Part shown: positions 44,567-64,000 of the stretch, piece by piece
Layout: every line of letters begins with the position of its first letter
How positions within the stretch are numbered: position 1 is the stretch's first letter
Assembly: GCF_040499845.1 (NCBI RefSeq)
Contig: NZ_CP159342.1
Location: 806,001-870,000 of the forward strand
Origin: Micromonospora sp. CCTCC AA 2012012
Lineage (GTDB): Bacteria; Actinomycetota; Actinomycetes; Mycobacteriales; Micromonosporaceae
Direction of reading: 5' to 3'
DNA: 64,000 nt
Notes under the pieces: generated by a model
What the model saw: only the letters and a program-made list of their open reading frames with translations
Database searches by the model: none
Told to the model about the DNA's origin: nothing
Position numbers and translations under genes: made by a program

Positions 44567-46267
44567 TCAGGCGGTGACGCCGGTCAGCTTCCGCCAGGTG
44601 TCGCGACGGGTGGCCTGCCGTACCGGATCAGCCACCGGCGCCGCCGCCAGCAGCCGCCGGGTGTACGGGTGCTGAGGTGCCCCGAGCACCTGCGCCGCCG
44701 GACCCTGCTCCACGACCAGACCGCCGCGCATCACCGCCACCCGGTCGGCGAGTTGCTCCACGACGGCGAGGTCGTGGCTGATGAACAGGCAGGCGAAGCC
44801 GAACTCGCCGCGCAGCTCCTGGAGCAGCTCCAGCACCCTGGCCTGTACCGACACGTCCAGGGCACTGGTCGGCTCGTCGGCGACCAGCAGCACCGGGTCG
44901 AGTGCCAGAGCCCGGGCGATGCCCACCCGCTGCCGCTGCCCGCCGGACATCTCGTGTGGATACCGGTCCCGCAGCCCGGCTGGCAGTCGCACCGCGTCCA
45001 GCAACTCGTCCACCCGGCGCCGCCGCTGCGTGGCGTCGCCGCCGCCGTGCAGCCGCAGCGGCTCCGCGACGCTCTGACCCACCGTCCACCGCGGGTTGAG
45101 TGACGAGGCCGGGTCCTGGAACACGAAACCGGTGCGCGAGCGGACCGCCCGCAGTTCCCGGGTGCTGCGGCGACCCGGCCTGCCGGCCCGGGCGACGTCG
45201 ACCCCGGCCACGACGACCTCACCGGCGACCACCGGGGCGAGGCCGATGAGCGCCCGGCCGACCGTGGACTTGCCGGACCCGGACTCGCCGACCAGGCCGA
45301 GCAGCTCACCGGCCTCGATGTGCAGCGACACATGGTTGACGGCCCGGACCGGGTCGACACCGCGGCGGGCGGGATACTCGACGACCACGTCCCGCAGTCG
45401 GACTGTCGGCTCCGAGGTCGGTGCCTCGCCGGCCGGACCTGCCCCCGGCTCGACTGGATCCGGCCGGTCCGCGGGCCGGGGCACGGCGTCGAGCAGCACC
45501 CGCGTGTACTCGTGCGTCGGCGACCCGAACAGCTCATCGACCGGTGCGTGCTCGACCACCAGTCCGTCGCGCAGGACCACCACCTCGTCGGCGATGTCCG
45601 CGACCACGCCCATGTCGTGGGTGATCAGCAGGATCGCCATGTCGAGCCGGTCCCGCAGTTCCCGCAGCAGGTCGAGGATCCCGGCCTGCACCGTGACGTC
45701 CAACGCGGTGGTCGGCTCGTCGGCGATCAGCAACGGGGGGTCGCAGCTGATCGCCATCGCGATCATCGCCCGCTGCAACTGGCCGCCGGACAACTCGTGC
45801 GGGTACGACCGGATGATCCGCCGTGGATCGTCGAGCCCGACCGACGCGAGCAGCTCGTGCACCCGCTGGTCGGCGGCCCGCCGGCCGACCGGGCGGTGGG
45901 TGCGGATCGCCTCGGTGATCTGGTGACCGACGGTCAGCACCGGGTTCAACGCGGTCATCGGCTCCTGGAAGACGGTGCCGATGCGGCCGCCGCGCACCTG
46001 CCGCAACAGCTCGGGATCGGCGTCGACGAGCTCGACACCGTCGAGTCGGATGCTGCCCTCGACCCGGGCCGTCGCGGGCAGCAGGCCGAGCGCCGCCATG
46101 GCTGTGACGCTCTTGCCGGAGCCGGACTCGCCGACCAGGGCGAGGACGCGCCCGCGACGCAGCTCGAAGGCCACGTCGCGGGTCGCGTCGACGCTCACCC
46201 CGTCCGCCGGGAACGAGATGGACAGGCCGTCCACCGCGAGCAGCGGTGTCGAGGTGTGCTCTGTCAT
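44567..46267 (-). CDS. ABC importer, fused double ATPase (DppD-DppF type), system 1
   Basis: Energises import of a peptide-like or organosulfur substrate; 566 residues holding both ATPases of an Opp/Dpp system in one chain. NBD1 has Walker A GESGSGKSV, signature LSGGQ and Walker B LLIADEP; NBD2 has GESGSGKST, MSGGQ and LLVADEP. Each ends with the oligopeptide-transporter extension (SPTHEYTRVLLDA and APQHPYTRRLLAA). ATG 46267 overlaps the substrate-binding protein's stop (TGATG). Gene order on the minus strand is permease, permease, binding protein, ATPase. The substrate is inferred from the neighbouring monooxygenases and leader peptides. Confidence 0.93.
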   Translation of the reverse strand: MTEHTSTPLLAVDGLSISFPADGVSVDATRDVAFELRRGRVLALVGESGSGKSVTAMAALGLLPATARVEGSIRLDGVELVDADPELLRQVRGGRIGTVFQEPMTALNPVLTVGHQITEAIRTHRPVGRRAADQRVHELLASVGLDDPRRIIRSYPHELSGGQLQRAMIAMAISCDPPLLIADEPTTALDVTVQAGILDLLRELRDRLDMAILLITHDMGVVADIADEVVVLRDGLVVEHAPVDELFGSPTHEYTRVLLDAVPRPADRPDPVEPGAGPAGEAPTSEPTVRLRDVVVEYPARRGVDPVRAVNHVSLHIEAGELLGLVGESGSGKSTVGRALIGLAPVVAGEVVVAGVDVARAGRPGRRSTRELRAVRSRTGFVFQDPASSLNPRWTVGQSVAEPLRLHGGGDATQRRRRVDELLDAVRLPAGLRDRYPHEMSGGQRQRVGIARALALDPVLLVADEPTSALDVSVQARVLELLQELRGEFGFACLFISHDLAVVEQLADRVAVMRGGLVVEQGPAAQVLGAPQHPYTRRLLAAAPVADPVRQATRRDTWRKLTGVTA

Positions 46268-47934
46268 CACTGCTTCAGCGAGACCTTCAGGTAGTTGGGG
46301 TAGGCGGGGAACGACGCCACGAAGAAGTTGGTCACGTTCGAGCCGTGCAGGAACGAGTTCTTCGTGTAGGTCAGCGGGACGACTGGCGCGTCGGTGAGGA
46401 TCCGCTTGTCGGCCTGCGCCCAGAGGGCCTGCGCCTTCGCCGGGTCGGTCTCCGCGGTCGCCTGGGCGATCAGCGCGTCCACCTCCGGCTGCGAGTAGCG
46501 GGAGAGGTTGTAGCCGCCCCCACCGATCTCGCTGGAGGCGAAGAGCGGCTGGATGTTGCCGTTCGCGCTCGGGAAGTCCGGCTGCCAGCTGCTCAGGGTC
46601 AGGTCGTAGTCGCCGGCGTCACCGGTGACCGCGGCGGTCCAAGTCTCCTCGTCCAGCGGCTTGATGGTGACGGTGATGCCGGCCCGCTGCAGGCCCTGCT
46701 GGATCGCCTGGGCCTTGCTGAGGGTCTGCGGGTCGTTCTTCACCACGAGGCTCAGCGCAAGGCTGGTCTTGCCGGCCTCGGCCAGCAGCTGCTTGGCCTT
46801 GGCCACGTCACCCGACGGGTCGGCCTGGTAGAGGTTGTAGTCGACCCGGCCGGGGATGCCCGGGGTGATCAGCGTGCTGGCGAGGTCCCCGCCGATGGCG
46901 CCGCCGGACGCGACCTGGTAGGCCCGCTTGTCCACCGCGTATTGAATCGCCTGGCGCACCTTGACGTCGGTGAGCGGGGCGCGGCGGTTGTTCAGCGCCA
47001 GGTACGACAGGGCACCCGCGTCGGAGGTGACCAGCCGCTGCTTGGCGCTCGGGTTCTGCTGGACCTGCGCGAGCTGGGCCGGCGGGACGAAGCCGGCCCC
47101 GAAGGCGCTGCGGTCGTCGCCGGAGTCGGCGATCAGCCGCTGCGCCGCAACGGTGTTCTCCTGGCCCAGCTGGAACACGACCTGGTCCGGGCCGGCGGTA
47201 CGTACCTCGTCGGTCTTGGCGTCCCAGTTAGGGTTGCGGGCCAGCCGCACTGCGCTGCCCTGCTGGTAGGACTGGACCTGGTACGGCCCGGACGCCACCG
47301 GGTTGCGGGTGTAGGTCTTCGGGTCGTCCTTCGCCTTCGGCACCGGTGCGAACGCCGGCATGGACGCGATCCAGGGCCAGTCGCCGTACGCCGTCTTCAG
47401 CCGGAACACGACTGTCTTCGCGTCCGGGACCTGGACCGAGTCGAGCTGCCCGCCCGCGTACGGGCCCTTGTAGGTGTCACCGCCGGTCAGCAGGCTCTTG
47501 TGGTATCCGAGCCCACCGGACAGTTCCGGCGCGAAGGACCGCTCGACGCCGTACTTGACGTCGGCGGCGGTGATCTGCGTGCCGTCGGCGTACTTCAGGC
47601 CGTCCTTGAGGTGGTAGGTCCAGGTGCGGCCGCCGTCGCTGCTGGTGCCGGTGTCGGTGGCGAGGTCCGGCACCACCCGGGCCGGCTTGCCCGGCTGGAT
47701 GTCCCAGGTGGTGAGCCGCCGCAGGACCAGGCCCAGGCTGGTGATGGCCAGGCCCTGGCTCTTCGCCGGATCGAAGTTCATCTCGGTGGCGGAGGTGGGG
47801 ATGGTCAGCGTGCCGCCCCGGTGGGTGCCTTCGGTGGACGACCCGGCCGTCGGGCTCGTCGGGTTGGCGTTGCAGGCGGTCAGGGTGAGCGCTGCGGCAA
47901 GCGCCGCGGCACCGAACGCAAGGGATTTCTTCAC
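46267..47934 (-). CDS. ABC importer substrate-binding lipoprotein (family 5), system 1
   Basis: Extracytoplasmic solute-binding lipoprotein, 555 residues. The signal peptide VKKSLAFGAAALAAALTLTAC ends in a lipobox (LTAC). The family 5 signature region is RVVPDLATDTGTSSDGGRTWTYHLKDGLKYADGTQITAADVKYGVER. GTG 47934 is preceded by GGAAAGGAAC. It lies between the permeases and the ATPase. Family members bind peptides, nickel chelates, glycosides or other organics, so the ligand cannot be set from sequence; an organosulfur compound is inferred from context. Confidence 0.93.
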   Translation of the reverse strand: MKKSLAFGAAALAAALTLTACNANPTSPTAGSSTEGTHRGGTLTIPTSATEMNFDPAKSQGLAITSLGLVLRRLTTWDIQPGKPARVVPDLATDTGTSSDGGRTWTYHLKDGLKYADGTQITAADVKYGVERSFAPELSGGLGYHKSLLTGGDTYKGPYAGGQLDSVQVPDAKTVVFRLKTAYGDWPWIASMPAFAPVPKAKDDPKTYTRNPVASGPYQVQSYQQGSAVRLARNPNWDAKTDEVRTAGPDQVVFQLGQENTVAAQRLIADSGDDRSAFGAGFVPPAQLAQVQQNPSAKQRLVTSDAGALSYLALNNRRAPLTDVKVRQAIQYAVDKRAYQVASGGAIGGDLASTLITPGIPGRVDYNLYQADPSGDVAKAKQLLAEAGKTSLALSLVVKNDPQTLSKAQAIQQGLQRAGITVTIKPLDEETWTAAVTGDAGDYDLTLSSWQPDFPSANGNIQPLFASSEIGGGGYNLSRYSQPEVDALIAQATAETDPAKAQALWAQADKRILTDAPVVPLTYTKNSFLHGSNVTNFFVASFPAYPNYLKVSLKQ

Positions 47935-47963
47935 GGTGTTCCTTTCCGGATCCACCGGACGCG

Positions 47964-48956
47964 TCAGCGCCCGATGCGGGGGTCGAGCACCCCGTAGACG
48001 AGGTCCACGAGGAAGTTGGCCAGGACGATGAGGAAGGCGGCGAACAGGGTCACGCCGACGATCAGCGGCAGATCGACGTTGCCCACCGCGTCGAGCAGCA
48101 GGGAGCCCAGACCGGGCATGCTGAACACCCGCTCGGTGATGACCGCGCCGCCGAGCAGTGAGCCCAGGTCGAGCCCGAAGACCGTGACCACCGGGATGAG
48201 CACGTTGCGCAGGGCGTGCCGGCCGACGACCCGCCGCTCCCGCAGACCCTTCGCCCGGGCGGTACGCACGTAGTCCTCGGCCAGCGCCTCCAGCATCTGA
48301 CCCCGGGTGAGCCGGGCGTAGATCGCCGCCGTGAGCAGCGCGAGCACACACCAGGGCAGGATCAGGTGCCAGAGCCAGCCGACCGGGTCCTCGGTCAGCG
48401 GCACGTAGCCGCTGACCGGCACCACGTTCAGCGTGAAGCCGAACAGCAGGATGCCGAGCAGACCGACCAGGTAGCTCGGTGCCGACACGCCGATGGTCGC
48501 GCCGGTCATCGCCAGCCGGTCGAGGACGCCGCCGCGGCGCACGGCGGAGACGACGCCGGCGCCGACGCCGAGCAGCAGCCACAGCAGCGCGGCGCCGAGG
48601 GCGACGGAGAAGGTCACCGGGGCGCGTTCGACGATGAGCTGGGTGACCGACTCGTTGAGCCGGAACGAGTACCCGAAGCAGGGGGCGGCGCAGTGCACGG
48701 CCGCCGGGCCGGCGCCGAAGGTGCGGCCGGCGACGATGCCGGCGAGGAAGTCGAGGTACTGCCGGATCCACGACTCGTCGTAGCCCATGAACGCCCGGGC
48801 GTCGGCGAGCCGCTGCGGGGTGCAGGGCTTGCCGCAGGACAGTTGCGCCGGGTCGGCGGGCAGCAGGTAGAACACGGCGTAGGTCAGCACGCTGACGGCC
48901 AGCAGCGTCGCCACCATGGCGAGCAGGCGACCGCCGAGGTACCGCAGGTGGTTCAT
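47964..48956 (-). CDS. ABC importer permease (DppB type), system 1
   Basis: A 330-residue inner-membrane permease with six helices. The EAA loop is visible as EDYVRTARAKGLRERRVVGRHALRNVLIPVV, and the C-terminus YGVLDPRIGR is the family's standard ending. An unusual insertion between TM1 and TM2 contains four Cys (SCGKPCTPQRL ... HCAAPCFG), probably extracytoplasmic. ATG 48956 overlaps the preceding permease stop by 4 nt. Confidence 0.93.
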   Translation of the reverse strand: MNHLRYLGGRLLAMVATLLAVSVLTYAVFYLLPADPAQLSCGKPCTPQRLADARAFMGYDESWIRQYLDFLAGIVAGRTFGAGPAAVHCAAPCFGYSFRLNESVTQLIVERAPVTFSVALGAALLWLLLGVGAGVVSAVRRGGVLDRLAMTGATIGVSAPSYLVGLLGILLFGFTLNVVPVSGYVPLTEDPVGWLWHLILPWCVLALLTAAIYARLTRGQMLEALAEDYVRTARAKGLRERRVVGRHALRNVLIPVVTVFGLDLGSLLGGAVITERVFSMPGLGSLLLDAVGNVDLPLIVGVTLFAAFLIVLANFLVDLVYGVLDPRIGR

Positions 48957-49885
48957 CGGCGTAGCCCGTCCGCACGCGGGTCCAGCGCGTCGCGCAGGCC
49001 GTCACCGAGCAGGTTGAAGCCGAGCGTCACCAGGAACAGGGCGGCGCCCGGGAAGATCAGGAACATCGGGTCGGTCTGCACCCAGGCGATTGCGTCGCCG
49101 ATGGAGCGGCCCCACGCTGGAGTGGGCGGCGGTACCCCGACACCGAGGAAGGACAGCGCGGCTTCGGCCCCGATCATGCCGGGGATCGACGCGGTGGCGT
49201 AGACGATGACGGTGGCGGACAGGTTGGGCAGCAGCTGTCGGAACAGGATGTGACCGGACCCGGCCCCGAGCGCGGTGGAGGCGACCACGAAGGTGCGCCG
49301 CCGTAGGGACAGGGTCTGCCCACGCACCACCCGGGCCATCGTCGGCCAGCCGAAGAAGCCGATCACCAGGACGAGCAGCAACGGCTTCGGGAAGCCGGCC
49401 GGGACGATTGCGCCGAGCGCGATGACGAAGACGAGCCAGGGAAAGCCGATCAGCACGTCGATCGCCCGGCTGACCGCCCGGTCGTACCAACCGCCGTACC
49501 AGCCGGCCGTGATCCCGACGAGCAGGCCGAGCAGCACGGAGACCGCGGTCGCGGCCAGGCCGACCAGCAGCGACGTGCGTGCGCCGTGTACGACGATCGC
49601 GAATAGGTCCCGGCCGGTCATCGGCTCCACGCCGAACCAGTGGTCGGCGCTGATGCCACCGCCGGTGCCCAGCGGGACACCGCCGTCGGAGAGCGCGTCC
49701 AGGTGATAGGTGTACGGGTCCTCGCCGGCGAGGGAGCCGAGCAGCGGCGCGGTGAGGGCGACGGCCAGGAATAGAGCGACGAGCGCGGCGCCGGTCAGTG
49801 CCGCTCGCTCGGACAGCAGCCGGCGGGCCGGTGATCGGACGGGGCGGTCCGTGATACCTCTGGGGGCGGGGGTGGTGACGGGCAC
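48953..49885 (-). CDS. ABC importer permease (DppC type), system 1
   Basis: A 310-residue permease, first gene of the minus-strand import operon. The start is GTG 49885 (VPVTTPAPRG) with AAGGAAA upstream; the open frame to 50005 adds an Arg-rich stretch that is unlikely to be translated. DHWFGVEPMTGRDLFAIVVHGARTSL and the EAA-like loop SLRRRTFVVASTALGAGSGHILFRQLLPN identify the DppC family. It is probably expressed from a promoter near the conserved 17-bp site at 50008. Confidence 0.93.
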   Translation of the reverse strand: MPVTTPAPRGITDRPVRSPARRLLSERAALTGAALVALFLAVALTAPLLGSLAGEDPYTYHLDALSDGGVPLGTGGGISADHWFGVEPMTGRDLFAIVVHGARTSLLVGLAATAVSVLLGLLVGITAGWYGGWYDRAVSRAIDVLIGFPWLVFVIALGAIVPAGFPKPLLLVLVIGFFGWPTMARVVRGQTLSLRRRTFVVASTALGAGSGHILFRQLLPNLSATVIVYATASIPGMIGAEAALSFLGVGVPPPTPAWGRSIGDAIAWVQTDPMFLIFPGAALFLVTLGFNLLGDGLRDALDPRADGLRR

Positions 49886-50007: not shown

Positions 50008-50024
50008 CCCACTAAACCTATAGG
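50008..50024. promoter_or_regulatory. 17-bp dyad site A (before import operon 1)
   Basis: CCCAC-TAAACCT-ATAGG, one of four sites of the form CC[CT][AT]C-N7-[AG]T[AG]GG in this region. It lies 123 bp upstream of the permease start. AT-rich compared with flanking DNA. Shared with sites at 51139, 53668 and 55439; the binding factor is unknown. Confidence 0.65.
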
Positions 50025-50092: not shown

Positions 50093-51097
50093 TCAGCCCC
50101 CCGGGTGCCAGCCGAGCAACGGGCCGAGCCGGGTCGAGATGTCGGTGAGCAGTTGCACGTAGTCGTCGTGCTCGAAGGTGAACGGCAGCGCGAAGGCCAC
50201 CTCGTCGACCTCCCGGAACGCCGCGAGGGAGGTCAGTTCCTCGGCGATGCGCTCCGCCGGACCGACCAGATCGCGGGCGAACATCATCCGGGCCGGCCCC
50301 TGGGGCGTCGCCGTGCGGGGGGTGCGCCGGTCGACGTACTCCTGGTAGCGGGCGCGCTGCTCGGAGGTGGCGCTGTCGGTAGGGATGACCACCAGCCCCT
50401 GCGACACCCGGGCGGCCGGCCCCTCCGGGTGGTGGGCACGGTACGTCCGGATGTGCGAGAGCTGGATCTCGTCGAAGTCGGTGGCCTCCTCGGCCTTGAC
50501 CACGCTGCTGGTGAGCAGGTTCATGCCCTGCTCGCCGGCCCACCGGGCGGAACGCAGGCTGCCAGCGCCGTACCACATCCGGGCGGCCAGGCCGGGGGAG
50601 TGCGGTTGCACCCGGCGGGAGAAGGCCTCGAAGCCCTCGACGCCGTCGACGTCGCTGGCCGGCTCGCCGCGGACGAGATCGAGAAGTCGACGGACCCGGG
50701 CGTAGCCGAAGTCCTCGGCGTCGCCGGTGTCCGGGTACAGGGCGTGCCGCACCCGGTCGTAGTGCATCGGCGGGCCCACGCTCACGCCCGGGTTGAGCCG
50801 TCCACCGGAGAGGACGTCGACCGTGGCCAGGTCCTCCGCGAGTCGTAGCGGGTTCTCCCAGCCGAGCGGGGTGACGGCCGTGCCGAGCTCGATGCGCCGG
50901 GTGCGCTGGGAGGCCGCCGCGAGGACGGCGACTGGTGAGGAGATGCCGTACTGGAGGTGCCGGTGGCGTACCCAGGCACTGTCGAAGCCGAGCTGCTCGC
51001 CCAGCTCGATGAGGGCCAGCGTCGATTCGTGGCCCGTGCGCGGGTCCGTCTCGTCGAACAGCCCGATGGTGAGGAAGCCGAGCTTGCGCAGAGGCAC
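50093..51097 (-). CDS. LLM-class flavin-dependent oxidoreductase
   Basis: A 334-residue TIM-barrel monooxygenase of the bacterial luciferase family, likely FMNH2-dependent, using reduced flavin from the neighbouring reductase. Visible blocks are LGFLTIGLFDETDP, LGEQLGFDSAWVRHRHL, RIELGTAVTPLGWENPLRLAEDLATVDVLSGGRLNPGVSVG and GPAERIAEELTSL near the end. The start is GTG 51097 with GGAGA upstream. It points away from the flavoprotein operon and shares with it the 17-bp site at 51139, then reads toward import operon 1. The substrate is unknown; a sulfonate or sulfone is plausible from context. Confidence 0.9.
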   Translation of the reverse strand: MPLRKLGFLTIGLFDETDPRTGHESTLALIELGEQLGFDSAWVRHRHLQYGISSPVAVLAAASQRTRRIELGTAVTPLGWENPLRLAEDLATVDVLSGGRLNPGVSVGPPMHYDRVRHALYPDTGDAEDFGYARVRRLLDLVRGEPASDVDGVEGFEAFSRRVQPHSPGLAARMWYGAGSLRSARWAGEQGMNLLTSSVVKAEEATDFDEIQLSHIRTYRAHHPEGPAARVSQGLVVIPTDSATSEQRARYQEYVDRRTPRTATPQGPARMMFARDLVGPAERIAEELTSLAAFREVDEVAFALPFTFEHDDYVQLLTDISTRLGPLLGWHPGG

Positions 51098-51197: not shown

Positions 51198-51269
51198 ATG
51201 AACCGGAGCACGCGTCTCACCCGGCGCCGCTTCGTCGACTTCCTCCGGGTGTGCAGCTGCGCCTGTTGA
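51198..51269 (+). CDS. Cysteine-rich leader peptide (23 residues) of the flavoprotein operon
   Basis: Encodes MNRST followed by RLTRRRFVDFLRVCSCAC, ending in three alternating Cys codons at a TGA stop. It shares the L-x-T-x-R-x-x-V-D-F-x-R-V-x-S pattern with two other leader peptides downstream. Poly-Cys short ORFs of this kind act as cysteine-responsive attenuators in mycobacteria: ribosomes stall when charged Cys-tRNA is scarce and let the operon be expressed. About 360 nt separate it from the first enzyme gene. It is too short for ordinary gene finding but strongly supported by the family pattern and its position. Confidence 0.82.
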   Translation: MNRSTRLTRRRFVDFLRVCSCAC

Positions 51270-51292
51270 GGCCGACGGCGCCGCTGCCCTGC

Positions 51293-55455: not shown

Positions 55456-55558
55456 TCTAGTAGGTATTAGGTCAACGATGTGGAGGCCCGGCGTGCGAAA
55501 GACGACAGCCGTCGGCGTATTCGTTGACATCACCGCGGCCGACGGGTGGACTCGGTCC

Positions 55559-55798: not shown

Positions 55799-57442
55799 AT
55801 GCCCGCGCACCGCCTGCGCTCCCTGACCGCCGTCGCCCTCACCGCCCTGCTCACCGCCACCGCCGGCTGCTCCACCCGCAGTGCTCCCGCCGCCGAGGCG
55901 GCCGGCCAACCCCGCTCCGGGGGCTCGCTCACCTGGGCCGTCGAGACCGAACCGATCACCCTCAACCCGCACCAGTACGCCCAGGCGAAGGCCCGCCTGC
56001 TGGTCTGGAACACGTTCGAGTCGCTGCTCACCTACGACAAGCAGGGAAAGCTGGCGCCCTGGCTGGCCACCGGCTGGCAGGCCGCGCCGGACGGCCGTTC
56101 CTACACCCTCACCCTGCGGGACAAGGTCACCTTCTCCGACGGCACCCCGTTCGACGCGACCGCCGTCAAGGCCAACATCGACAAGCTCCGCGAGCCCGGG
56201 TACGCCCCGGCGGTCGCCGCCGTGCAGCTACGCAACCTCGCCACCGTGCAGGTGCTCGACCCGCGTACGGTCCGACTCACCCTCACCCGCCCCGACGTGC
56301 TCATCCTCGACTTCCTGGCCTCCCCGCAGGGCGCGCAGGTCTCCCCGAGGTCGCTGCGCGAGGCGAAGAACCTCAAGGCCGGTGGGGTGGACCTCGCCGG
56401 CACCGGCCCGTTCGTCCTGGACCGCTACGTGCCCGGCCAGGAACTGCACTACAAGCGCAACCCCGCCTACGACTGGGCGCCGCCCACCGCCACCCACACC
56501 GGACCCGCCCACCTCGACGGCATCACCTACCGGTTTCTCAAGGAGTCCGCCGTGCGCGTCGGTGCCCTCACCTCCGGCCAGGTCCAACTCGTCGAGGGTG
56601 TGCCGGCCACCGACCAGCCCCTGGTCACCGGCAACCCGAAGCTGCGGCTAAGCCGGCAGCTCAACTCCGGATCGGCGTACTCATACTACTTCAACACCTC
56701 CCACGCCCCCTTCGACGACCTGCGGGTACGCCAGGCCTTCCGGGAGGCCGTCGACGTCGACACCGTGCTCAGGTCCGTCTACCGGGACACCGCCACCCGC
56801 GCGTGGAGTGTCGTCAGCCCGTCCAGCCCGCTGTACGACAAGCGCCTCGAGGGCGGCTACGGCGGCGACGCCGCCAAGGCCAACGCCCTGCTCGACCAGG
56901 CCGGCTGGACCGGGCGCGACCCCGAGGGCTACCGGGTCAAGGACGGTAAGCGGCTCGCCGTCCGGCTGGTGCAGGCCGCCCCGTTCGTCCGGGACCGCCG
57001 CGACGTCCTCGCCCAGGCCGTGCAGGCCGCCGTCAAGCAGAGCGCCGGCATCGACCTCAAGATCTCGCTGGTCGACCAGGGCACCGCCCAGCAGGCCTTC
57101 GACACCAACCAGTACGAGGTCTTCGACAACTCCCGCGCCGACACCGACGCCGGCGCCGCCCTGAACCTGCTGCTGCACAGCAAGGGCGGCATCAACCGGA
57201 CCAAGGTCGACGACCCGCGTGTCGACCAGCTCTTGGACGCCGGCCAGGCCACCGCCGACCCGACCAGGCGGGCCGCGATCTACGCCGAGCTGCAACAGCG
57301 CGTCGTCGCCGACCAGGCCCTGCTGCTGCCCCTCTACGCCCCCGCCGACCAGATCGCCGCCAGCACCACCGTCGGCGGGGTCCGCTTCGAACCCACGGCC
57401 GGGGTCCCCGCCAGCGCCTACGACCTGTGGATCGGCAACTGA
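55799..57442 (+). CDS. ABC importer substrate-binding lipoprotein (family 5), system 2
   Basis: A 547-residue solute-binding lipoprotein with signal peptide MPAHRLRSLTAVALTALLTA and lipobox TAGC. The family 5 block is APWLATGWQAAPDGRSYTLTLRDKVTFSDGTPFDATAVKANIDK. ATG 55799 has CAGGAGA upstream. It heads a plus-strand operon of binding protein, two permeases, a fused ATPase, two LLM monooxygenases and a GNAT protein. It differs in sequence from the system 1 binding protein, so the two systems probably carry different substrates. Confidence 0.94.
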   Translation: MPAHRLRSLTAVALTALLTATAGCSTRSAPAAEAAGQPRSGGSLTWAVETEPITLNPHQYAQAKARLLVWNTFESLLTYDKQGKLAPWLATGWQAAPDGRSYTLTLRDKVTFSDGTPFDATAVKANIDKLREPGYAPAVAAVQLRNLATVQVLDPRTVRLTLTRPDVLILDFLASPQGAQVSPRSLREAKNLKAGGVDLAGTGPFVLDRYVPGQELHYKRNPAYDWAPPTATHTGPAHLDGITYRFLKESAVRVGALTSGQVQLVEGVPATDQPLVTGNPKLRLSRQLNSGSAYSYYFNTSHAPFDDLRVRQAFREAVDVDTVLRSVYRDTATRAWSVVSPSSPLYDKRLEGGYGGDAAKANALLDQAGWTGRDPEGYRVKDGKRLAVRLVQAAPFVRDRRDVLAQAVQAAVKQSAGIDLKISLVDQGTAQQAFDTNQYEVFDNSRADTDAGAALNLLLHSKGGINRTKVDDPRVDQLLDAGQATADPTRRAAIYAELQQRVVADQALLLPLYAPADQIAASTTVGGVRFEPTAGVPASAYDLWIGN

Positions 57443-57443
57443 C

Positions 57444-58379
57444 ATGAGCCGACCACGCCTACGCGCCGTGACCCGCCGGATCGGCACCGGACTCGTCGTC
57501 CTCTGGGCCGCGTCCACCGCCGCCTACCTCGCGCTGCTGGCCGCGCCCGGCGACACCGTCGACGCCATCGTCGGCGACGGCGCCGACACCCCGCAGATCC
57601 GCGCCGAGATCACCGCCGAGTGGGGCCTGGACCGCCCCCCGCTCGTGCAGTACCTCGACTACCTGCGCCGCCTCGCCGAAGGCGACCTGGGCCGCTCCTA
57701 CCTGCTGCACCGTCCCGTGGCAGAGGTGATCGGCGAGCAGCTCGCCCCCACCCTCACCCTCGCCGCGGCGGCCGCCGGGCTCGGCGTGCTGCTGGCCCTC
57801 GCACTCGCCACCGCGACCGCCGGAGACCGCCGGCCCTGGCTGCGGCGGGCCAGCTCCGGCACCGAACTGCTGCTGGTCTCCACGCCGACGTTCCTCATCG
57901 GCATCGTTCTGCTCACCGTCTTCTCGTTCCGGCTCGGCCTCTTCCCGGTCGCCGGCGACCAGGGCCTCGCGGCCCTGGTGCTCCCCGCGATCACCCTCGC
58001 CCTGCCCATCGCCGGACTGCTCGCCCAGGTGCTGCGCGACGCGCTCGACCGGGCCCTGGACGAACCGTTCGTGCTCACCGCCCGCTCGCGCGGGCTGCGG
58101 GAGCGGGCCGTGCTGCTGCGGCACGCCCTGCGCCACGCCCTGCTGCCCGCCGTCACCCTCGCCGGCTGGCTCTTCGGCATCCTGCTCGGCGGGGCCGTCA
58201 TCGTCGAGCAGGTCTTCGGCCGGCCCGGCCTCGGCCAGGTCACGCTGGCCGCCGTGACCGGCAAGGACATACCGACCGTGCTGGCCGTGGTGACCCTCTC
58301 CGCCGCCGTCTACGTGGTGGTCAACACCGCCGCCGACCTGGCGTACCTGCTCATCGACCCGCGACTGCGCAGGAGCTGA
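57444..58379 (+). CDS. ABC importer permease (DppB type), system 2
   Basis: A 311-residue permease with six helices. The EAA loop is DEPFVLTARSRGLRERAVLLRHALRHALLPAV and the C-terminus LAYLLIDPRLRRS is the family's usual ending. ATG 57444 is one base after the binding-protein stop. Unlike the system 1 DppB, it lacks the Cys-rich loop after TM1. Together with the DppC-type permease it forms the membrane channel. Confidence 0.94.
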   Translation: MSRPRLRAVTRRIGTGLVVLWAASTAAYLALLAAPGDTVDAIVGDGADTPQIRAEITAEWGLDRPPLVQYLDYLRRLAEGDLGRSYLLHRPVAEVIGEQLAPTLTLAAAAAGLGVLLALALATATAGDRRPWLRRASSGTELLLVSTPTFLIGIVLLTVFSFRLGLFPVAGDQGLAALVLPAITLALPIAGLLAQVLRDALDRALDEPFVLTARSRGLRERAVLLRHALRHALLPAVTLAGWLFGILLGGAVIVEQVFGRPGLGQVTLAAVTGKDIPTVLAVVTLSAAVYVVVNTAADLAYLLIDPRLRRS

Positions 58380-58381
58380 CG

Positions 58382-59275
58382 ATGACCGTGACCCTCGCCG
58401 GCGCACCCGCCGGCACCACCGCATCCCTCGACGGTGAGGCCGACCGACAGGTCGTCCGCCCGTGGCGGCGACTCCGCCCGGCCCCTGTGGCCGCCGGGGC
58501 GTACCTGCTCCTGCTGCTCGTCGCCGCCGTCCGGCCACGGCTGCTCGCCCCCGGTGACCCCCTCGCCGCCGACCCGCTCACCGTGCTCGCCCCGCCCGGT
58601 GCGACGCACTGGTTCGGCACCGACCACCTCGGCCGCGATGTGTGGACCCGGGTGGTGCACGGCGCCGGGCACTCGCTCACCATCGGCGTCGCCGCCACCG
58701 CCATCGCGGTCACCGTGGGCGTGCTGCTCGGCCTGCTCGCCGGCCTCGCGCACCGGATCGCCGACGAGACGCTCAGCCGCGCCTTCGACGCGCTGTCCGC
58801 GTTCCCCATGCTGCTACTGGCGCTGCTGTTCATCGCCATCGCCGGCCCCGGCACCACCAGCCTGATCGTCGCCATCGGCGTCGCCACCCTGCCCCACCAC
58901 GCCCGGGTGGTCCGCGCACAGACCCTGCTCGTCCGCCGCGCCGGGTACGTCGAGCACGCCGTCACCTTCGGCCTGACCCGGACCCGGCTGGTGGCCCGCC
59001 ACGTCCTGCCCAACGTGCTCGGCCCGATCCCGGTGCTCGCCGTGATCGGGCTCGGCGAGGCGGTGCTCGCCGCCTCCGGACTCAGCTTCCTCGGCATGGG
59101 ACCCCAACCACCGTCACCCGAGTGGGGGGCGATGCTCTCCGAGGGCCGCAACTACCTGCAGGTGGGCTGGTGGATCAGCATCCTGCCGGGTGTCGCGATC
59201 ACCCTCACCGTGGTGGCGCTGACCGTCCTCGGCCGGCACTGGCAGGCCCGCTTCGACGGGCGGCAGCCCCGATGA
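58382..59275 (+). CDS. ABC importer permease (DppC type), system 2
   Basis: A 297-residue permease with five to six helices. Family blocks are HWFGTDHLGRDVWTRVVHGAGHSL near the N-terminus, an EAA-like LVRRAGYVEHAVTFGLTRTRLVARHVLPNVLGP loop, and SGLSFLGMGPQPPSPEWGAML. ATG 58382 lies 2 nt after the previous stop, with AGGAGC upstream inside the preceding gene. It overlaps the ATPase gene by 4 nt (ATGA). Confidence 0.94.
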   Translation: MTVTLAGAPAGTTASLDGEADRQVVRPWRRLRPAPVAAGAYLLLLLVAAVRPRLLAPGDPLAADPLTVLAPPGATHWFGTDHLGRDVWTRVVHGAGHSLTIGVAATAIAVTVGVLLGLLAGLAHRIADETLSRAFDALSAFPMLLLALLFIAIAGPGTTSLIVAIGVATLPHHARVVRAQTLLVRRAGYVEHAVTFGLTRTRLVARHVLPNVLGPIPVLAVIGLGEAVLAASGLSFLGMGPQPPSPEWGAMLSEGRNYLQVGWWISILPGVAITLTVVALTVLGRHWQARFDGRQPR

Positions 59276-60942
59276 CCCCGTTGGTCGCCGTCGAGGACCT
59301 GCACGTCACCTTCACCACCCCGACCGGTGAGGTGCGGGCCGTGCGAGGTGTCGACCTCACCGTCGAACGTGGCGAGTGCGTCGCCGTCGTCGGCGAGTCC
59401 GGCTCGGGCAAGAGCGTCACCGCCCGTACCCTCGTCGGGCTCCCCGGACCCGGTGCCCGCGTGCGGGCCGCCCGCCTCGACCTGGCCGGCCAGGACGTGC
59501 GCGGCCACCGGCCCCGCGACTGGCGGCGCATCCGCGGCCGGCTCGCCGGCCTCGTGCTGCAGGACGCGCTGGTCTCGCTGGATCCGCTGCGCACGGTGGG
59601 TGCGGAGATCGCCGAGGTCCTCGCCACCCACGGTGTCGTCAACCGCCGGGAACGCGCCGGCCGCGCCGTCCATCTGCTCGACCAGGTGCACGTGCCGGAG
59701 CCGGAGCGGCGCGCCCGCCAGTATTCCCACCAGCTCTCCGGTGGCCTGCGGCAACGAGCCCTGATCGCCTCGGCGATCGCAGGGGAACCCGCGCTGCTGA
59801 TCGCCGACGAGCCCACCACCGCGCTGGACGTCACGGTGCAGGCGCAGATCCTCGAGCTGCTCGCCGAGCGCCTGGCCGCCGGCCTGAGCCTGCTGTTGAT
59901 CAGCCACGACCTCGCCGTCGTCGGGCAGATCGCCGACCGGATCCTGGTCATGCGCGACGGCGAGATCGTCGAACAGGGACCCGCCGACCGGCTGCTGCGC
60001 GCCCCGACCCACCCGTACACCCGGCAGTTGCTCGACGCGGTGCCGTCGGCCTCGTCCCGCGGACGCCGGCTCACCGCGCCCATTCGGCGCGGGGCGGGCG
60101 CGGCGCCGGTCCGCGCCGCGCTGCCGGCCCGCCCGCCGGTCCGCGCCGCGCTGCCGGCCCGCCCGCCGGTCCGCGCCGACGACACCGTGCTCGCCGCCGC
60201 CGGCCTCACCAAACGGTACGGCGCGCACACCGTCGTGAAGGACGTCTCGTTCACCATCGCCCGCGGTGAGACGCTCGGGCTGGTGGGGGAGTCCGGCTCC
60301 GGCAAGAGCACGGTGGCACGGATCGTCGCCGCGCTGCTCGAACCCGGGGCCGGTGACGTCACCTTCGAGCGCGGCCCCTGGTCCACGCTGGCGGAACGGC
60401 ATCGCCGGCCGCTGCGCCGCCGTCTCCAGGTGATCTCCCAGGATCCGGTCGGCTCCTTCGACCCCCGCTACACCGTCGGCGAGGTGATCGCCGAGAACCT
60501 GGATCCCGGGCTGACCCGCGGCGAACGCGCCGACCACGTCGTGGACCTGCTGCGCCGCGTCGACCTCGACCCGCGGCTGCGTGACCGGCACCCCCGGGCA
60601 CTCTCCGGCGGGCAGCGCCAACGCGTCGCCATCGCCCGCGCCGTCGCCCCCCGCCCCAGCCTCATCGTCTGCGACGAACCGGTCTCCGCCCTCGACGTCT
60701 CCGTCCAGGCGCAGGTTCTCGACCTGCTGGCCGACCTGCGGGCCGCCGACGGCACCGCGCTGCTGTTCATCTCCCACGACCTGGGCGTCGTGCACCACCT
60801 CGCCGACCGGGTGCTGGTCATGCAGGACGGCGCGGTGGTCGAGCAGGGCCCGGTCGGTGACGTCTTCACCTATCCGCGGCACGACTACACCCGATCGCTG
60901 CTCGACGCCCTGCCCACCCTCGTCACCGCCGGCCGACCGTAG
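59272..60942 (+). CDS. ABC importer, fused double ATPase (DppD-DppF type), system 2
   Basis: A 556-residue double ATPase. NBD1: Walker A GESGSGKSV, signature LSGGL rather than LSGGQ, Walker B LLIADEP. NBD2: Walker A GESGSGKST, signature LSGGQ, Walker B LIVCDEP. The linker carries an exact tandem duplication: the decapeptide VRAALPARPP occurs twice, at DNA level a 30-bp repeat near 60111-60170, showing recent slippage. ATG 59272 overlaps the permease stop. It powers the second importer. Confidence 0.94.
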   Translation: MTPLVAVEDLHVTFTTPTGEVRAVRGVDLTVERGECVAVVGESGSGKSVTARTLVGLPGPGARVRAARLDLAGQDVRGHRPRDWRRIRGRLAGLVLQDALVSLDPLRTVGAEIAEVLATHGVVNRRERAGRAVHLLDQVHVPEPERRARQYSHQLSGGLRQRALIASAIAGEPALLIADEPTTALDVTVQAQILELLAERLAAGLSLLLISHDLAVVGQIADRILVMRDGEIVEQGPADRLLRAPTHPYTRQLLDAVPSASSRGRRLTAPIRRGAGAAPVRAALPARPPVRAALPARPPVRADDTVLAAAGLTKRYGAHTVVKDVSFTIARGETLGLVGESGSGKSTVARIVAALLEPGAGDVTFERGPWSTLAERHRRPLRRRLQVISQDPVGSFDPRYTVGEVIAENLDPGLTRGERADHVVDLLRRVDLDPRLRDRHPRALSGGQRQRVAIARAVAPRPSLIVCDEPVSALDVSVQAQVLDLLADLRAADGTALLFISHDLGVVHHLADRVLVMQDGAVVEQGPVGDVFTYPRHDYTRSLLDALPTLVTAGRP

Positions 60943-60954: not shown

Positions 60955-62160
60955 ATGCCCGACACCACCCTGCACCTTGCCGCGGCACTCGACGGCCTGG
61001 GCTGGCACCCGGCCGCCTGGCGACTCTCCCGCGCCGACCCCACCGCACCACTGTCGTCCCGATGGTGGGCGGCCCTGGCCGGCGAGGCCGAACGCGCCGC
61101 GCTGGACCTGGTCACCCTGGAGGACAGCCTTGACCTGCAGTCCACCGCCCCGGACGGCCCGGACGGCCACACGGACCAGCTCCGGGGACGGCTGGACGCG
61201 CTGCTGGTCGCCGCCCGCATCGCCCCGCTGACCCAGCACATCGGACTGGTGCCGACCACCAGCGTCACGCACACCGAACCGTTCCACGTCTCCACCGCCG
61301 TGGCCACCCTCGACCACGTCAGCGGCGGGCGGGCCGGCTGGCGACCCCGGGTCTCCGCCCGGCGGTCCGAGGCGCGGCACTTCGGCCGCCGGAACCTGCC
61401 CGCCCTGGATCCGGCGCACCTCGACGCTCCGGAGACGGTCCGTCTCGTCGGTGACCTGTTCACCGAGGCGGGCGACGCGGTGGAGGTCGTCCGGCGGCTC
61501 TGGGACAGCTGGCAGGACGACGCCGAGATCCGCGACGTCGCCACCGGCCGGTTCGTCGACCGGGACCGGTTGCACTACATCGACTTCGCCGGGCGGTGGT
61601 TCTCCGTCAAGGGACCGTCCATCGTGCCCCGGCCGCCGCAGGGTCAGCCGGTCGTCGCCGCGCTCGCCCACTCCGCGGTGCCGTACGCGTTCGCCGCCCG
61701 GCACGCCGACGTCGTCTTCGTCACCCCCGCCGACGCCGGCCACGCCGCCGCCGTCGTCGCCGAGGTCCGCGCGGTCGAGGAGACCGTCGGCCGGACCGGG
61801 CCGCCGCTGCGCATCCTCGCCGACCTGCTCGTCCTGCTCGACGAGACACCGACGCTGGCCCGCCGGCGCCGGGGCCGCCTCGACGACCTGGCGACCACCG
61901 ACGTCGGCTCCGACGCGGCCGCGTTCACCGGCACCCCCGGGCAGCTCGCCGACCTGATCCAGGAATGGCACCGGGCCGGGGTGGACGGGTTCCGGCTGCG
62001 TCCCGCGGTGCTGCCCGACGACCTCACCGCCGTCACCCGGGCGCTGGTGCCGACCCTGCGCGACCGGGGCCTGTTCCGTGCCGGCTACCCCGACGGGACG
62101 CTGCGCGCCCTGCTCGGACTGTCCCGCCCGGCCAACCGGTACGCCGCCGCGACCGCCTGA
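60955..62160 (+). CDS. LLM-class flavin-dependent monooxygenase
   Basis: A 401-residue luciferase-family protein. Visible blocks are EAERAALDLVTLEDSLDLQ, AARIAPLTQHIGLVPTTSVTHTEPFHVSTAVATLDHVSGGRAGWRPRVS and a C-terminal FTGTPGQLADLIQEWHRAGVDGFRLRP. The insertion VEVVRRLWDSWQDDAEIRDVATGRFVDRDRLHYIDFAGRWFSVKGP is typical of the NtaA/SnaA/DszA subgroup that oxidises aminopolycarboxylates, sulfones or sulfides using reduced FMN. ATG 60955 follows AGGAGG. Together with the next gene it may form a two-step oxidation or act on different substrates. Confidence 0.9.
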   Translation: MPDTTLHLAAALDGLGWHPAAWRLSRADPTAPLSSRWWAALAGEAERAALDLVTLEDSLDLQSTAPDGPDGHTDQLRGRLDALLVAARIAPLTQHIGLVPTTSVTHTEPFHVSTAVATLDHVSGGRAGWRPRVSARRSEARHFGRRNLPALDPAHLDAPETVRLVGDLFTEAGDAVEVVRRLWDSWQDDAEIRDVATGRFVDRDRLHYIDFAGRWFSVKGPSIVPRPPQGQPVVAALAHSAVPYAFAARHADVVFVTPADAGHAAAVVAEVRAVEETVGRTGPPLRILADLLVLLDETPTLARRRRGRLDDLATTDVGSDAAAFTGTPGQLADLIQEWHRAGVDGFRLRPAVLPDDLTAVTRALVPTLRDRGLFRAGYPDGTLRALLGLSRPANRYAAATA

Positions 62161-62174
62161 CCCTGGAGAACGCC

Positions 62175-63533
62175 GTGCCCAAGCAGATCATCCTCGCCGC
62201 GCACTTCCCCGGCGTGAACAACACGACCGTGTGGAGCGACCCCGCCTCCGGCAGCCAGATCGACTTCGCGTCCTTCGTCCACCTGGCCCGTACCGCCGAG
62301 CGGGGTTTGTTCGACTTCTTCTTCCTCGCCGAAGGACTCCGGCTGCGCGAGCAGCGTGGCCGCATCCACGACCTGGACGTGGTGGGCCGCCCCGACACCC
62401 TGACCGTGCTGGCCGCCCTGGCCGCCGTCACCACCCACCTCGGCCTGGCCGGCACCCTCAACGCGACCTTCCGGGAGCCGTACGAGCTGGCCCGGCAACT
62501 CGCCACCCTGGACCACCTCTCCGGCGGGCGGGCCGCCTGGAACGTGGTCACCACCTCCGACTCGTTCACCGGGGAGAACTTCCGCCGGGGCGGCTTCATG
62601 GACCGTTCGCTGCGCTACGAGCGGGCCGCCGAGTTCGTGCGTACGGCCCGCGAGCTGTGGGAGTCCTGGGCAGCCGACGCCCTGGCCGGCGACCGCGACA
62701 GCGGCCGCTATCTCACCGCCCCCGACCCCGGCGCGTTCATCCACCACGGCGACCAGTTCGACATCGCCGGCCACTTCACCGTGCCGCGCAGTCCGCAACT
62801 GCATCCGGTGATCCTGCAGGCCGGCGACTCGCCCGACGGGCGGGAGTTCGCCGCCTCCAGCGCCGACGCCATCTTCTCCCGCCACGGGACCCTCGAGGCG
62901 GGGCAGGAGTTCTACCGGGACGTGAAGTCCCGGCTGGCCCGCCACGGCCGCGAGCCGGACGACCTGAAGATCATCCCAGGGGTGACCGTCGTGCTCGGCG
63001 ACACCGACGCCGAGGCTCAGGAGAAGGCCCACCACATCCGGCGCCAGCAGGTCAGCCCACAGACCGCGATCCTGCTGCTCGAACAACTGTGGAACCGGGA
63101 CCTGTCCGGACACGACCCGGAGGGACCCCTGCCCGCCACCGACCCGGACGTCTCCGCCGACGCGATCAGCCGGGGCCGCGCCGGCATGTATCCCGACCCG
63201 GTCGCCACGGCCCGCCAGTGGCGCGCCCTGGCCGAGGAGAAGGGGCTCGGCATCCGTGACCTGATCATCGAGGTGACCGGTCGGCAGTCCTTCATCGGCA
63301 CCCCGCGGCAGGTCGCCGAGCGGATGAACCACTTCGTGCAGGCCGACGCCGCCGACGGCTTCATCCTCGTGCCCCACCTGACCCCCGGCGGCCTCGACGA
63401 GTTCGTCGACCGGGTGGTCCCCCTGCTGCAGGAACGCGGCGTCTTCCGCACCCGCTACGCCGGCACCACCCTGCGGGAGCACCTCGGCCTCGGCGCCGCC
63501 CGTCCGGTCTCGGCTGTGGCGGCCCCGCGATGA
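62175..63533 (+). CDS. NtaA/DmoA-family FMN-dependent monooxygenase
   Basis: A 452-residue enzyme of the NtaA/SnaA/DszA/DmoA group, which includes dimethylsulfide, dibenzothiophene-sulfone and nitrilotriacetate monooxygenases. Key blocks are LAAHFPGVNNTTVWSDP, RGLFDFFFLAEGLRLREQ, NATFREPYELARQLATLDHLSGGRAAWNVVTTSDSFTGENFRRGG and HPVILQAGDSPDGREFAA. GTG 62175 has GGAGAA 6 nt upstream. It oxidises a C-S or C-N bond with FMNH2 and oxygen; in this setting C-S cleavage is the favoured guess. The GNAT gene overlaps its stop (ATGA). Confidence 0.93.
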   Translation: MPKQIILAAHFPGVNNTTVWSDPASGSQIDFASFVHLARTAERGLFDFFFLAEGLRLREQRGRIHDLDVVGRPDTLTVLAALAAVTTHLGLAGTLNATFREPYELARQLATLDHLSGGRAAWNVVTTSDSFTGENFRRGGFMDRSLRYERAAEFVRTARELWESWAADALAGDRDSGRYLTAPDPGAFIHHGDQFDIAGHFTVPRSPQLHPVILQAGDSPDGREFAASSADAIFSRHGTLEAGQEFYRDVKSRLARHGREPDDLKIIPGVTVVLGDTDAEAQEKAHHIRRQQVSPQTAILLLEQLWNRDLSGHDPEGPLPATDPDVSADAISRGRAGMYPDPVATARQWRALAEEKGLGIRDLIIEVTGRQSFIGTPRQVAERMNHFVQADAADGFILVPHLTPGGLDEFVDRVVPLLQERGVFRTRYAGTTLREHLGLGAARPVSAVAAPR

Positions 63534-64000
63534 GCACGCCCACCCGGACGCGGCTCGCCCAGGTGGTGGTCTGCCGGCGACGCTGGCAGGACCCGGACGC
63601 CGTACGGCTGCGCGCGGCCCTGACGAGCGAACTGCGCAACCGCTACGCCGACCGGCCCACCGACCCGATCCACCTGCCACCGGACGAGGCGGTCGCCGCG
63701 GCCTCCGTCGCCTGGACCGGCGTCGCCTACACCCCGGCCGCCAACCCGGTCGGGCACGCCGCGCTGCGCTGGCACGGCGACGACCTGGAACTCAAACGGA
63801 TGTACGTCGTGCCGGAGCACCGGGGCCACGGCGTGGCCGACGCGCTGCTCACGGCCGCCGAGGACGCCGCGGCGCGACTCGGCGCCGCGCGGATCGTGCT
63901 GCAGACCGGCGACCGCCAACCCGACGCCGTCCGCCGCTACGAGCAGGCCGGCTACCACCGGCTCCCGGTCTTCCCGCCGTACGACGGGTTGCCCTGGTCG
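63530..64000 (+). CDS. GNAT-family N-acetyltransferase (3' end outside window)
   Basis: The 157 visible residues include the acetyl-CoA site: LKRMYVVPEHRGHGVADALLTAAEDAAARLGAARIVLQTG, where R-x-x-G-x-G/A is read as RGHGVA, and YEQAGYHRLPVFPPY near the end, so little of the protein is missing. The ATG overlaps the monooxygenase stop by 4 nt. It may acetylate an amine released by the monooxygenase or detoxify an imported compound; both are inferences from position. Confidence 0.9.
   Translation, partial: MSTPTRTRLAQVVVCRRRWQDPDAVRLRAALTSELRNRYADRPTDPIHLPPDEAVAAASVAWTGVAYTPAANPVGHAALRWHGDDLELKRMYVVPEHRGHGVADALLTAAEDAAARLGAARIVLQTGDRQPDAVRRYEQAGYHRLPVFPPYDGLPWS

Follow-up and report, generated by a model that had tools for sequence, protein, structure and literature searches.

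We analysed a 64,000-nucleotide stretch of the 6.73 Mb, single-contig genome of Micromonospora sp. CCTCC AA 2012012 (the window; G000:C1:806001-870000), which carries at its right-hand end an island of importer and flavin-dependent monooxygenase genes. Leftward, the gene order is LLM1 (LLM, luciferase-like monooxygenase), DppC1, DppB1, OppA1 and a fused ATPase. Rightward, three short leader reading frames each head a unit: leader 1 with a flavoprotein and a ferredoxin gene; leader 2 with DUF1684 and a flavin reductase; and leader 3 with OppA2, DppB2, DppC2, a fused ATPase, LLM2, LLM3 and GNAT1. The last operon extends 5.7 kb past the window edge, to ~69.7 kb in window coordinates, and this extension (in L003, the genome stretch 868000-886000 spanning the right edge) encodes LLM4, LLM5, parts of a cystine-type ATP-binding cassette (ABC) importer and a second acetyltransferase, GNAT2, giving island totals of five LLM enzymes and three importers. 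The importer, monooxygenase and DUF1684 genes are listed here with their model scores.

44567-46270 (-): DppDF1, fused two-domain ATPase of importer 1; two ABC-ATPase stretches (NCBIfam)
46267-47934 (-): OppA1, solute-binding lipoprotein of importer 1; SBP_bac_5 256 bits, GsiB-like 116 bits (below the cut-off of 594)
47964-48956 (-): DppB1, permease of importer 1; Opp2B 262 bits (below the cut-off of 350)
48953-49885 (-): DppC1, permease of importer 1; Opp4C 245 bits (below the cut-off of 350); start set at the GTG at 49885, with an in-frame ATG also at 50005
50093-51097 (-): LLM1, luciferase-like monooxygenase; Bac_luciferase 106 bits, TIGR04027 111 bits (below the cut-off of 413)
53934-54752 (+): DUF1684 protein with Cys235-X7-Cys243; PF07920 152 bits (cut-off 25)
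54785-55315 (+): flavin reductase, partner of two-component monooxygenases; Flavin_Reduct 131 bits
55799-57442 (+): OppA2, solute-binding protein of importer 2; TIGR04028 238 bits (below the cut-off of 468)
57444-58379 (+): DppB2, permease of importer 2; Opp2B 262 bits (below the cut-off of 350)
58382-59275 (+): DppC2, permease of importer 2; Opp2C 239 bits (below the cut-off of 300)
59272-60942 (+): DppDF2, fused ATPase of importer 2; two ABC-ATPase stretches (NCBIfam)
60955-62160 (+): LLM2, NtaA/DmoA-family monooxygenase; TIGR03860 280.1 bits, barely above the cut-off of 279.7
62175-63533 (+): LLM3, CmoJ/YtnJ-like monooxygenase of the NtaA/DmoA family; TIGR03860 428.6 bits (cut-off 279.7)
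63530-64000 (+): GNAT1 acetyltransferase, cut by the window end and complete at L003:1531-2073; Acetyltransf_1 51 bits
L003:3157-4281: LLM5, MsnO8-family monooxygenase; TIGR03558 340.5 bits (cut-off 166.95)

A preliminary description of this DNA had reported two Opp-type importers with fused ATPases, which are indeed present at 44567-49885 (-) and 55799-60942 (+), and the flavin reductase, DUF1684 and GNAT genes likewise occur in the place and order it gave. Its three LLM enzymes lie in the window (LLM3 with 429 bits to TIGR03860 against a cut-off of 280), but the island holds five, two of them past the edge. Among solved relatives, LLM2 is closest to YtnJ (173 bits; DszA, 166), and LLM3 scores 289 bits to YtnJ, 265 to both DszA and 3sdo, and 170 to EDTA (ethylenediaminetetraacetate) monooxygenase. 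LLM4 is CE1758-like (266 bits, below the cut-off of 479), and none of the island LLM enzymes exceeded the cut-off of the SsuD or SfnG models. The permease and ATPase of importer 3 score best to models of cystine importer components (137 and 307 bits, below the cut-offs of 300 and 406), and its binding protein reaches 99 bits to a cystine model with a cut-off of 312. Comparisons of GNAT1 with plasmid and PDB sequences yielded no useful lead. In the stretch of DppDF2 that codes for the linker joining its two ATPase domains (60104-60178), a 30-bp unit is repeated 2.5 times with zero mismatches.

Conserved core and DUF1684

LLM3 was found at E<=1e-120 in 35 of 121 genomes of the family, at 43 places, around which 37 loci were fetched, all outside the genus. 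Of these family loci, 36 have LLM2 next to LLM3, 34 have LLM5 within 6 kb, 32 have an importer match and 5 have DUF1684 within 10 kb, and two have a match to the flavoprotein, one of them just 28% identical. Inside the genus, the arm with importer 1 also recurs without the flavoprotein (L175, L177). The conserved core comprises an Opp importer, the LLM2-LLM3 pair and LLM5, together with DUF1684 and the flavin reductase, and it resembles the CmoO/CmoJ salvage of S-alkylcysteines in Bacillus. A gene for a GST-domain protein recurs near the CmoJ-like genes in seven of the 37 loci (L131, L133, L136, L139, L141, L146 and L155; Pfam domain shown for the L133 copy), with shorter hits in L130, L137 and L138, which hints at S-conjugate chemistry.

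DUF1684 and LLM3 tend to occur together. Among 151 genomes of the genus, the DUF1684 clade is present in 19, LLM3 in 20 and both in 15 (Fisher p=2.9e-13), and in the 14 genomes with both on one contig their starts lie 5.8 to 13.2 kb apart. The two are within 25 kb of each other in 9 of 33 family genomes that hold both and are linked in 10 of 26 at class level, against expectations of 0.42 and 0.37, respectively, if the genes were placed uniformly in genomes of an assumed size. This DUF1684 was read in 16 genus loci, namely L126 and 15 others; the flavin reductase adjoins it in 15, and the pair directly precedes the OppA2 unit in 12, G489 being ordered otherwise. Among its nearest relatives, those with a named source are Micromonospora proteins. 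C235 and C243 are invariant in an alignment of 45 sequences, and the CX7C motif is found in 43/43 loci (42 distinct genes, including the second copy of the source genome). The structural model has a mean predicted local distance difference test score (pLDDT) of 90, and its matches at E<=0.001 were 4fj4, 4dlh, 2lok and 2lnu only. These are uncharacterised haloarchaeal DUF1684 structures, one solved with mercury; the fold thus matched its own family only and gave no function. A passage on the Haloferax DUF1684 protein HVO_1043, an OxsR target in chromatin immunoprecipitation, describes a conserved CX7C whose thiols have the arrangement usual in a thiol relay (PMC9426492). Because of the invariant CX7C, the thiol-relay report and the linkage to CmoJ-like genes, we tentatively suggest that DUF1684 may be a thiol-reducing partner acting on a CmoJ-made sulfenic acid. 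A family with solved structures whose function is so far not known would in this way gain a linked pathway and a proposed reaction.

Cysteine-ended leaders and a putative sulfur operator

The leaders and the accompanying sites are as follows, where a dyad is a match to CCTAY-N7-GTRGG and its RTAGG form is CCTAY-N7-RTAGG.

51198-51269 (+): leader peptide 1, 23 residues, ending CSCAC; NF042936 22.6 bits (below the cut-off of 45)
53697-53780 (+): leader peptide 2, 27 residues, ending MRVASQLCCGPR; NF042933 32.0 bits (below 45), NF042934 25.4 bits (below 27)
55559-55636 (+): leader peptide 3, MSSELRLTTRGHIDFGRVWSSSCMR; kept across relatives, no NCBIfam match
55524-55552 (+): promoter-like TTGACA-17-TGGACT; ends 6 nt ahead of the ATG of leader 3, hexamers assigned by eye
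50008-50024 (-): dyad upstream of the importer 1 unit; exact CCTAY-N7-GTRGG
53668-53684 (both strands): dyad CCTACTTAGTTGGTAGG at the leader 2/DUF1684 unit; exact on both strands
55439-55464 (no strand assigned): two overlapping dyads upstream of leader 3; one exact (55439-55455), one with one mismatch

The Cys leader peptides of the preliminary description are thus present as three Cys-ended open reading frames (ORFs), which share a pattern of approximately LT.R..(V/I)D(F/L).RV..C, but none reaches the cut-off of the NCBIfam Cys-rich leader models (NF042933, NF042934, NF042936). Peptides like leader 1 occur in the relatives' loci L126, L179 and L184, and peptides like leader 2 in L126, L172 and L182. 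Across 13 aligned leader 3 regions (that of the source strain and 12 relatives, two of them near-identical) the peptide is kept and TTGAC is found in 13/13. The spacing of the promoter box suggests that the leader 3 transcript would be leaderless, starting at or near the leader ATG; RNA folding of the spacer between leader 3 and OppA2 gave no convincing common terminator. Leaderless Cys-rich leader peptides, Ms5788A and Ms4527A, were reportedly described in mycobacteria by Canestrari et al. in 2020. The island leaders are like these in being short, probably leaderless ORFs with terminal Cys codons upstream of sulfur-type genes, and unlike them in scoring below the family cut-offs and in the operons that follow. 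Elsewhere in the source genome, a general leader model found four leaders above its cut-off, all outside the island. One precedes a gene that is sulfurtransferase-like (109 bits, below 250) and another a sulfatase (Pfam, 145 bits). A third heads a unit of a TauC-like permease and an NtaA/DmoA enzyme (585 bits), in which the first gene matches nothing in NCBIfam at E<=1e-20, and the fourth stands before an importer of the amino-acid/cystine type whose scores stay below the cut-offs.

Shared dyad sites had also been proposed, and exact copies mark the importer 1, DUF1684 and leader 3 units, whereas the gap between LLM1 and the flavoprotein gene contains no exact dyad. The RTAGG form is exact in 10 of the 13 aligned leader 3 regions and deviates at one position in the other three, including that of the source strain. 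The genome holds eight distinct GTAGG-type dyads, of which one lies at a flavin reductase, one has no obvious partner and six are at sulfur units, namely the island's leader 2/DUF1684 unit, the leader-preceded sulfatase, a cysteine dioxygenase-rhodanese unit, two SsuA genes (184 and 194 bits, cut-off 163.5) and a molybdopterin sulfite-dehydrogenase-like gene (160 bits, below 420). Four relatives gave 24 distinct sites, 19 of which were fetched, with most within-island sites omitted. Twelve of these 19 (two of them, L200 and L217, on weak evidence) abut a leader or a sulfur gene, a related importer or a flavin reductase, and seven have no such gene by the queries used. In control loci of the GTGGG form, which were longer than the test loci, 0/7 had a sulfur gene at the site; in one of them, L192, an Rrf2-like ORF adjoins the site and an LLM5-like ORF lies 3.3 kb off. 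The RTAGG form was also found 21 times in the 37 CmoJ-like family loci and dyads 7 times in 19 family DUF1684 loci, compared to 0 in the reversed sequence of either set. The cysteine dioxygenase-rhodanese unit (L188:4403-5385; G000:C1:1356902-1357884) keeps its dyad in 4/4 relatives, and a cysteine-degrading enzyme under a sulfur operator would be odd if the dyad binds a repressor relieved by starvation.

Genes of the Rrf2 type recur as members or neighbours of the sulfur clusters that a dyad or leader marks (two in the source genome confirmed by PF02082, the others found by tblastn). Of the seven loci without a sulfur gene, L212 and L213 also have an Rrf2-like gene within ~1.4 kb, and in L199 the start of an Rrf2-like gene lies under the dyad, and its frame carries a stop. 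Because of this recurrence, in which the island resembles the cysteine regulon of CymR (Rrf2), a CymR-like Rrf2 repressor is probably the best candidate for the dyad, other regulator families being possible; part of a report on Rhodococcus IGTS8 also names a CymR/Rrf2 candidate (PMC8557817). Since Cys leaders and dyad, two independent cis signals, join the island units to other sulfur genes, the island very probably forms part of a cysteine/sulfur-limitation regulon. In this respect the placement of leaders and dyads supports the preliminary description, which had proposed such a regulon for importing organosulfur compounds and cleaving their C-S bonds with flavin enzymes. Together, the operator and leader set predict a regulon in Micromonospora.

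The flavoprotein and ferredoxin pair

Between leaders 1 and 2 lie the following features.

51280-51550 (+): 129-bp direct tandem duplication in the gap between leader 1 and the flavoprotein gene (Tandem Repeats Finder, 97% matches)
51686-53302 (+): fumarate-reductase-type flavoprotein ('AprA-like'); FAD_binding_2 64 bits
53299-53655 (+): ferredoxin with two CxxCxxCxxxCP motifs (by eye); Fer4 families

This pair had been described as AprAB-like, a likeness that holds at the superfamily level: as in AprAB, an FAD_binding_2 flavoprotein adjoins a ferredoxin with two 4Fe-4S motifs. However, the adenylylsulfate (APS) reductase alpha model NF005331 gives the flavoprotein 45.7 bits against a cut-off of 557, and its closest solved relatives by sequence are SdhA and L-aspartate oxidase. 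AprA, FrdA and NadB (L-aspartate oxidase) carry an active-site His with a catalytic role, whereas in an alignment of 81 flavoprotein sequences no His reaches 98% conservation, and the His of HYTCGG in L-aspartate oxidase aligns with Arg320, which is itself conserved. Identity as an APS reductase was rejected on this score and the missing His, and the flavoprotein is unlikely, judging by its alignment, to be a standard enzyme of either the fumarate-reductase or the APS reductase type. The 129-bp duplication may affect attenuation or mark an insertion. ARAGORN places a tRNA-Cys within the flavoprotein gene (51742-51829), which has no Rfam support and is probably false.

The flavoprotein (E<=1e-100) is present in 3 of the 151 genus genomes, lying within the island in the source strain only, and in 12 of the 121 family genomes. 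In L126, from the same-genus relative G096, leaders 1 and 2 are kept and no flavoprotein was found between them. More distant relatives lie close to related clusters in a few cases: a 30-31% identical flavoprotein on the opposite strand near the island in L167 and L169, and a 49% relative beside a CmoJ-like cluster in G119, from another genus of the family. We examined the neighbourhoods of the best 80 of 95 confirmed flavoprotein loci. The ferredoxin lies within 300 bp in 79 (the contig ends in the remaining one), and Ssu/Tau-type permease or binding-protein matches lie within 6 kb in 67, many of them at ~35% identity, which does not settle the transported compound. NtaA is a neighbour in 18 loci; a CmoJ-like gene was seen in 3, DUF1684 in just 1. 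The leader pattern gave 28 matches in 23 of the 80 loci and 0 in reversed sequence, and 21 loci have a same-strand leader no more than 6 kb upstream. Dyads were rejected as a signal of these loci (4 versus 3 reversed). Several loci of Nonomuraea, Actinomadura, Spongiactinospora and others (L027-L036 and similar) hold two tandem pairs, in most cases with an Ssu/Tau-like importer upstream.

Because the pair is rare in the islands of the genus and is usually near Ssu/Tau-type genes, it appears to be a separate sulfonate-type module that was added in the source strain or lost elsewhere, and its substrates are likely to be sulfonates or their products. The proposal that an APS-reductase-like pair belongs to one system with the rest is therefore not upheld by its distribution. 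The neighbourhood comparison that the preliminary description called for gave a divided result, in which the core units travel together but the flavoprotein pair moves independently of them, though still with sulfur-type genes. The unit that it had drawn stops short at one end, where the operon continues, and takes in too much in the middle, where the pair is included. A flavoprotein/ferredoxin pair of unassigned function is hereby detached from the 'APS reductase' label.

Proposed salvage of S-modified cysteines and competing explanations

The island is like the ytn/ytm operon of B. subtilis, whose genes include that for the deacetylase YtnL, in uniting a putative YtnJ-type NtaA/DmoA monooxygenase, an MsnO8-type monooxygenase, a GNAT, cystine-type importer genes and a flavin reductase in one island under sulfur-type control, and unlike it in adding a near-constant LLM2, LLM4, an Opp-type importer, DUF1684 and Cys leaders. 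We take YtnJ to be CmoJ, and CmoO/YtmO presumably belongs to the MsnO8 family. Passages of PMC10863075 describe how CmoO forms a sulfoxide, which CmoJ, named there as homologous to YxeK and DszA, cleaves to give a sulfenic acid that is reduced before deacetylation; S-alkylcysteine salvage, worked out in Bacillus, is there said to be widespread in soil bacteria. Bacillus clusters that unite an acetyltransferase, a monooxygenase and a deacetylase are described in part of PMC12757645. Acetyltransferase, FMN (flavin mononucleotide) monooxygenase and importer are similarly combined in the yxe/scm breakdown of S-(2-succino)cysteine in B. subtilis (YxeK/ScmK, YxeL, YxeMNO, YxeP), according to sections of PMC9706529 and PMC12757645; this system differs in having one monooxygenase and another importer type, and the island in having no deacetylase found. 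Among the matches listed in a literature search on CmoJ/S-alkylcysteine or mercapturate salvage, no actinobacterial report appeared. From these comparisons of sequence and gene order, we consider it somewhat better than an even chance that the core would be an actinobacterial, CmoO/CmoJ-like salvage system for S-modified cysteines of the thioether or sulfoxide type.

Starting from the family-level gene identities, linkage, leaders, dyads and CX7C as seen, we infer the substrate, the order of reactions, the identity of the regulator and the chemistry of DUF1684 as follows. When charged Cys-tRNA runs short, ribosomes would slow on the Cys-ended leaders, and a repressor, probably of the Rrf2/CymR type, would leave its CCTAY-N7-RTAGG dyad. 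S-substituted cysteine derivatives would then enter through the Opp-type and cystine-type importers and, where needed, have the amino group capped by a GNAT. The MsnO8-type LLM5 would make the sulfoxide, and the YtnJ/CmoJ-like LLM3, perhaps with LLM2, would cleave the C-S bond with FMNH2 from the flavin reductase to give a cysteine sulfenic acid, which DUF1684 could reduce to the thiol via Cys-X7-Cys before a deacetylase encoded elsewhere would free cysteine.

A number of observations weigh against this interpretation. YtnJ leads DszA and 3sdo by just ~24 bits for LLM3, and the matches of the importers to cystine/glutathione families are all below cut-off. No M20 deacetylase was found among the island genes (the remaining genome was not searched for it), none of the four gene groups common to at least 4 of the 37 relatives' loci is M20-like (two judged by eye), and a YtnI-like reductase was not found in the cluster, all of which set the island apart from ytn/ytm. 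GNAT1 is present in 0 and GNAT2 in 13 of the 37 family loci, and acetylation is thus no fixed step. In 24 of the 33 family genomes with both genes, DUF1684 does not lie within 25 kb of the CmoJ-like gene on one contig, and the source genome has a second, unlinked DUF1684 copy. The dyad is not enriched by count: the window contains 7 dyads with <=1 mismatch versus 10.2 expected, the genome 19 exact dyads versus 30 for the control, in which the pattern is read backwards, and in the four relatives the backwards control is higher in three, the fourth having 9 versus 8. We therefore rejected enrichment by count as evidence, and the meaning of the dyad rests on its placement and conservation. Moreover, the gene queries for placement in the relatives were derived from the dyad loci of the source genome, so this test shows conservation and is not an unbiased count.

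An explanation near to that of the preliminary description is general sulfonate/sulfone desulfurisation, in which SsuD/MsuD/SfnG/DszA-like LLM enzymes release sulfite and the flavoprotein pair handles sulfite or sulfonates. The DszA score of LLM3, close to that for YtnJ, agrees with this, as do the Ssu/Tau-type genes around most flavoprotein loci and the dyads at SsuA and sulfite-dehydrogenase-like genes of the genome. The core importers, however, are Opp- and cystine-type rather than Ssu-type, no LLM enzyme passes the SsuD or SfnG cut-off, LLM5 is MsnO8-type, GNATs are present, and the flavoprotein pair was not found in the relatives' islands, and we regard a sulfonate/sulfone set as unlikely. 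The functional direction of the preliminary description was right, and the core resembles S-alkylcysteine salvage rather than an attack on sulfones or nitrilotriacetate (NTA), although the margin of YtnJ over DszA is small. With regard to the latter compound, the Opp/Nik-type importers could take up peptides, opines or aminocarboxylates of the NTA/EDTA type, with NtaA-type enzymes cutting C-N bonds for nitrogen or metals. The NtaA/DmoA family does hold proteins named NTA and EDTA monooxygenases, and nickel/oligopeptide models pick up the permeases and binding proteins, with scores below cut-off. Against this, LLM3 matches EDTA monooxygenase far more weakly than YtnJ, and the Cys leaders and a dyad also seen in relatives join the units to sulfur genes. 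We rejected NTA/EDTA attack as the main role on the weaker match and the sulfur-type control, and such peptide, amine or chelator catabolism is highly improbable.

The GST-domain gene in seven family loci, with shorter hits in three more, and the formation of mercapturic acids from mycothiol S-conjugates in actinobacteria, as described in part of PMC4267739, would fit a role in detoxification, in which reactive S-conjugates or antibiotics are removed and cysteine recovery is secondary. The regulatory sites are common to sulfonate, sulfatase and cysteine dioxygenase genes, however, and several high-investment importers point to acquisition, which makes detoxification quite improbable as the main function. 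Returning to the salvage of S-modified cysteines, mycothiol conjugates might even supply its substrates. In this more specific and rather unlikely form, the island would close a mycothiol detoxification loop, where N-acetyl-S-alkylcysteines (mercapturic acids) released by the amidase are reimported through the Opp-type importers and dealkylated by LLM5 and LLM2/LLM3, and DUF1684, as a novel kind of protein thiol reductase, converts the sulfenic acid to N-acetylcysteine, the whole being switched on through the Cys leaders and the new sulfur operator. Products of the mycothiol S-conjugate amidase are already N-acetylated, which would explain why the cluster has neither the GNATs nor a deacetylase as a fixed part. 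If the salvage reading of the core is right, in this form or the broader one, cysteine recovery from S-conjugates has a distinct actinobacterial form, for which mycothiol conjugates would be a natural source of substrate. Farther left in the window, a GH48 enzyme with a CBM2 domain is encoded at 8050-11238 (1024 bits) and has no relation to the island.

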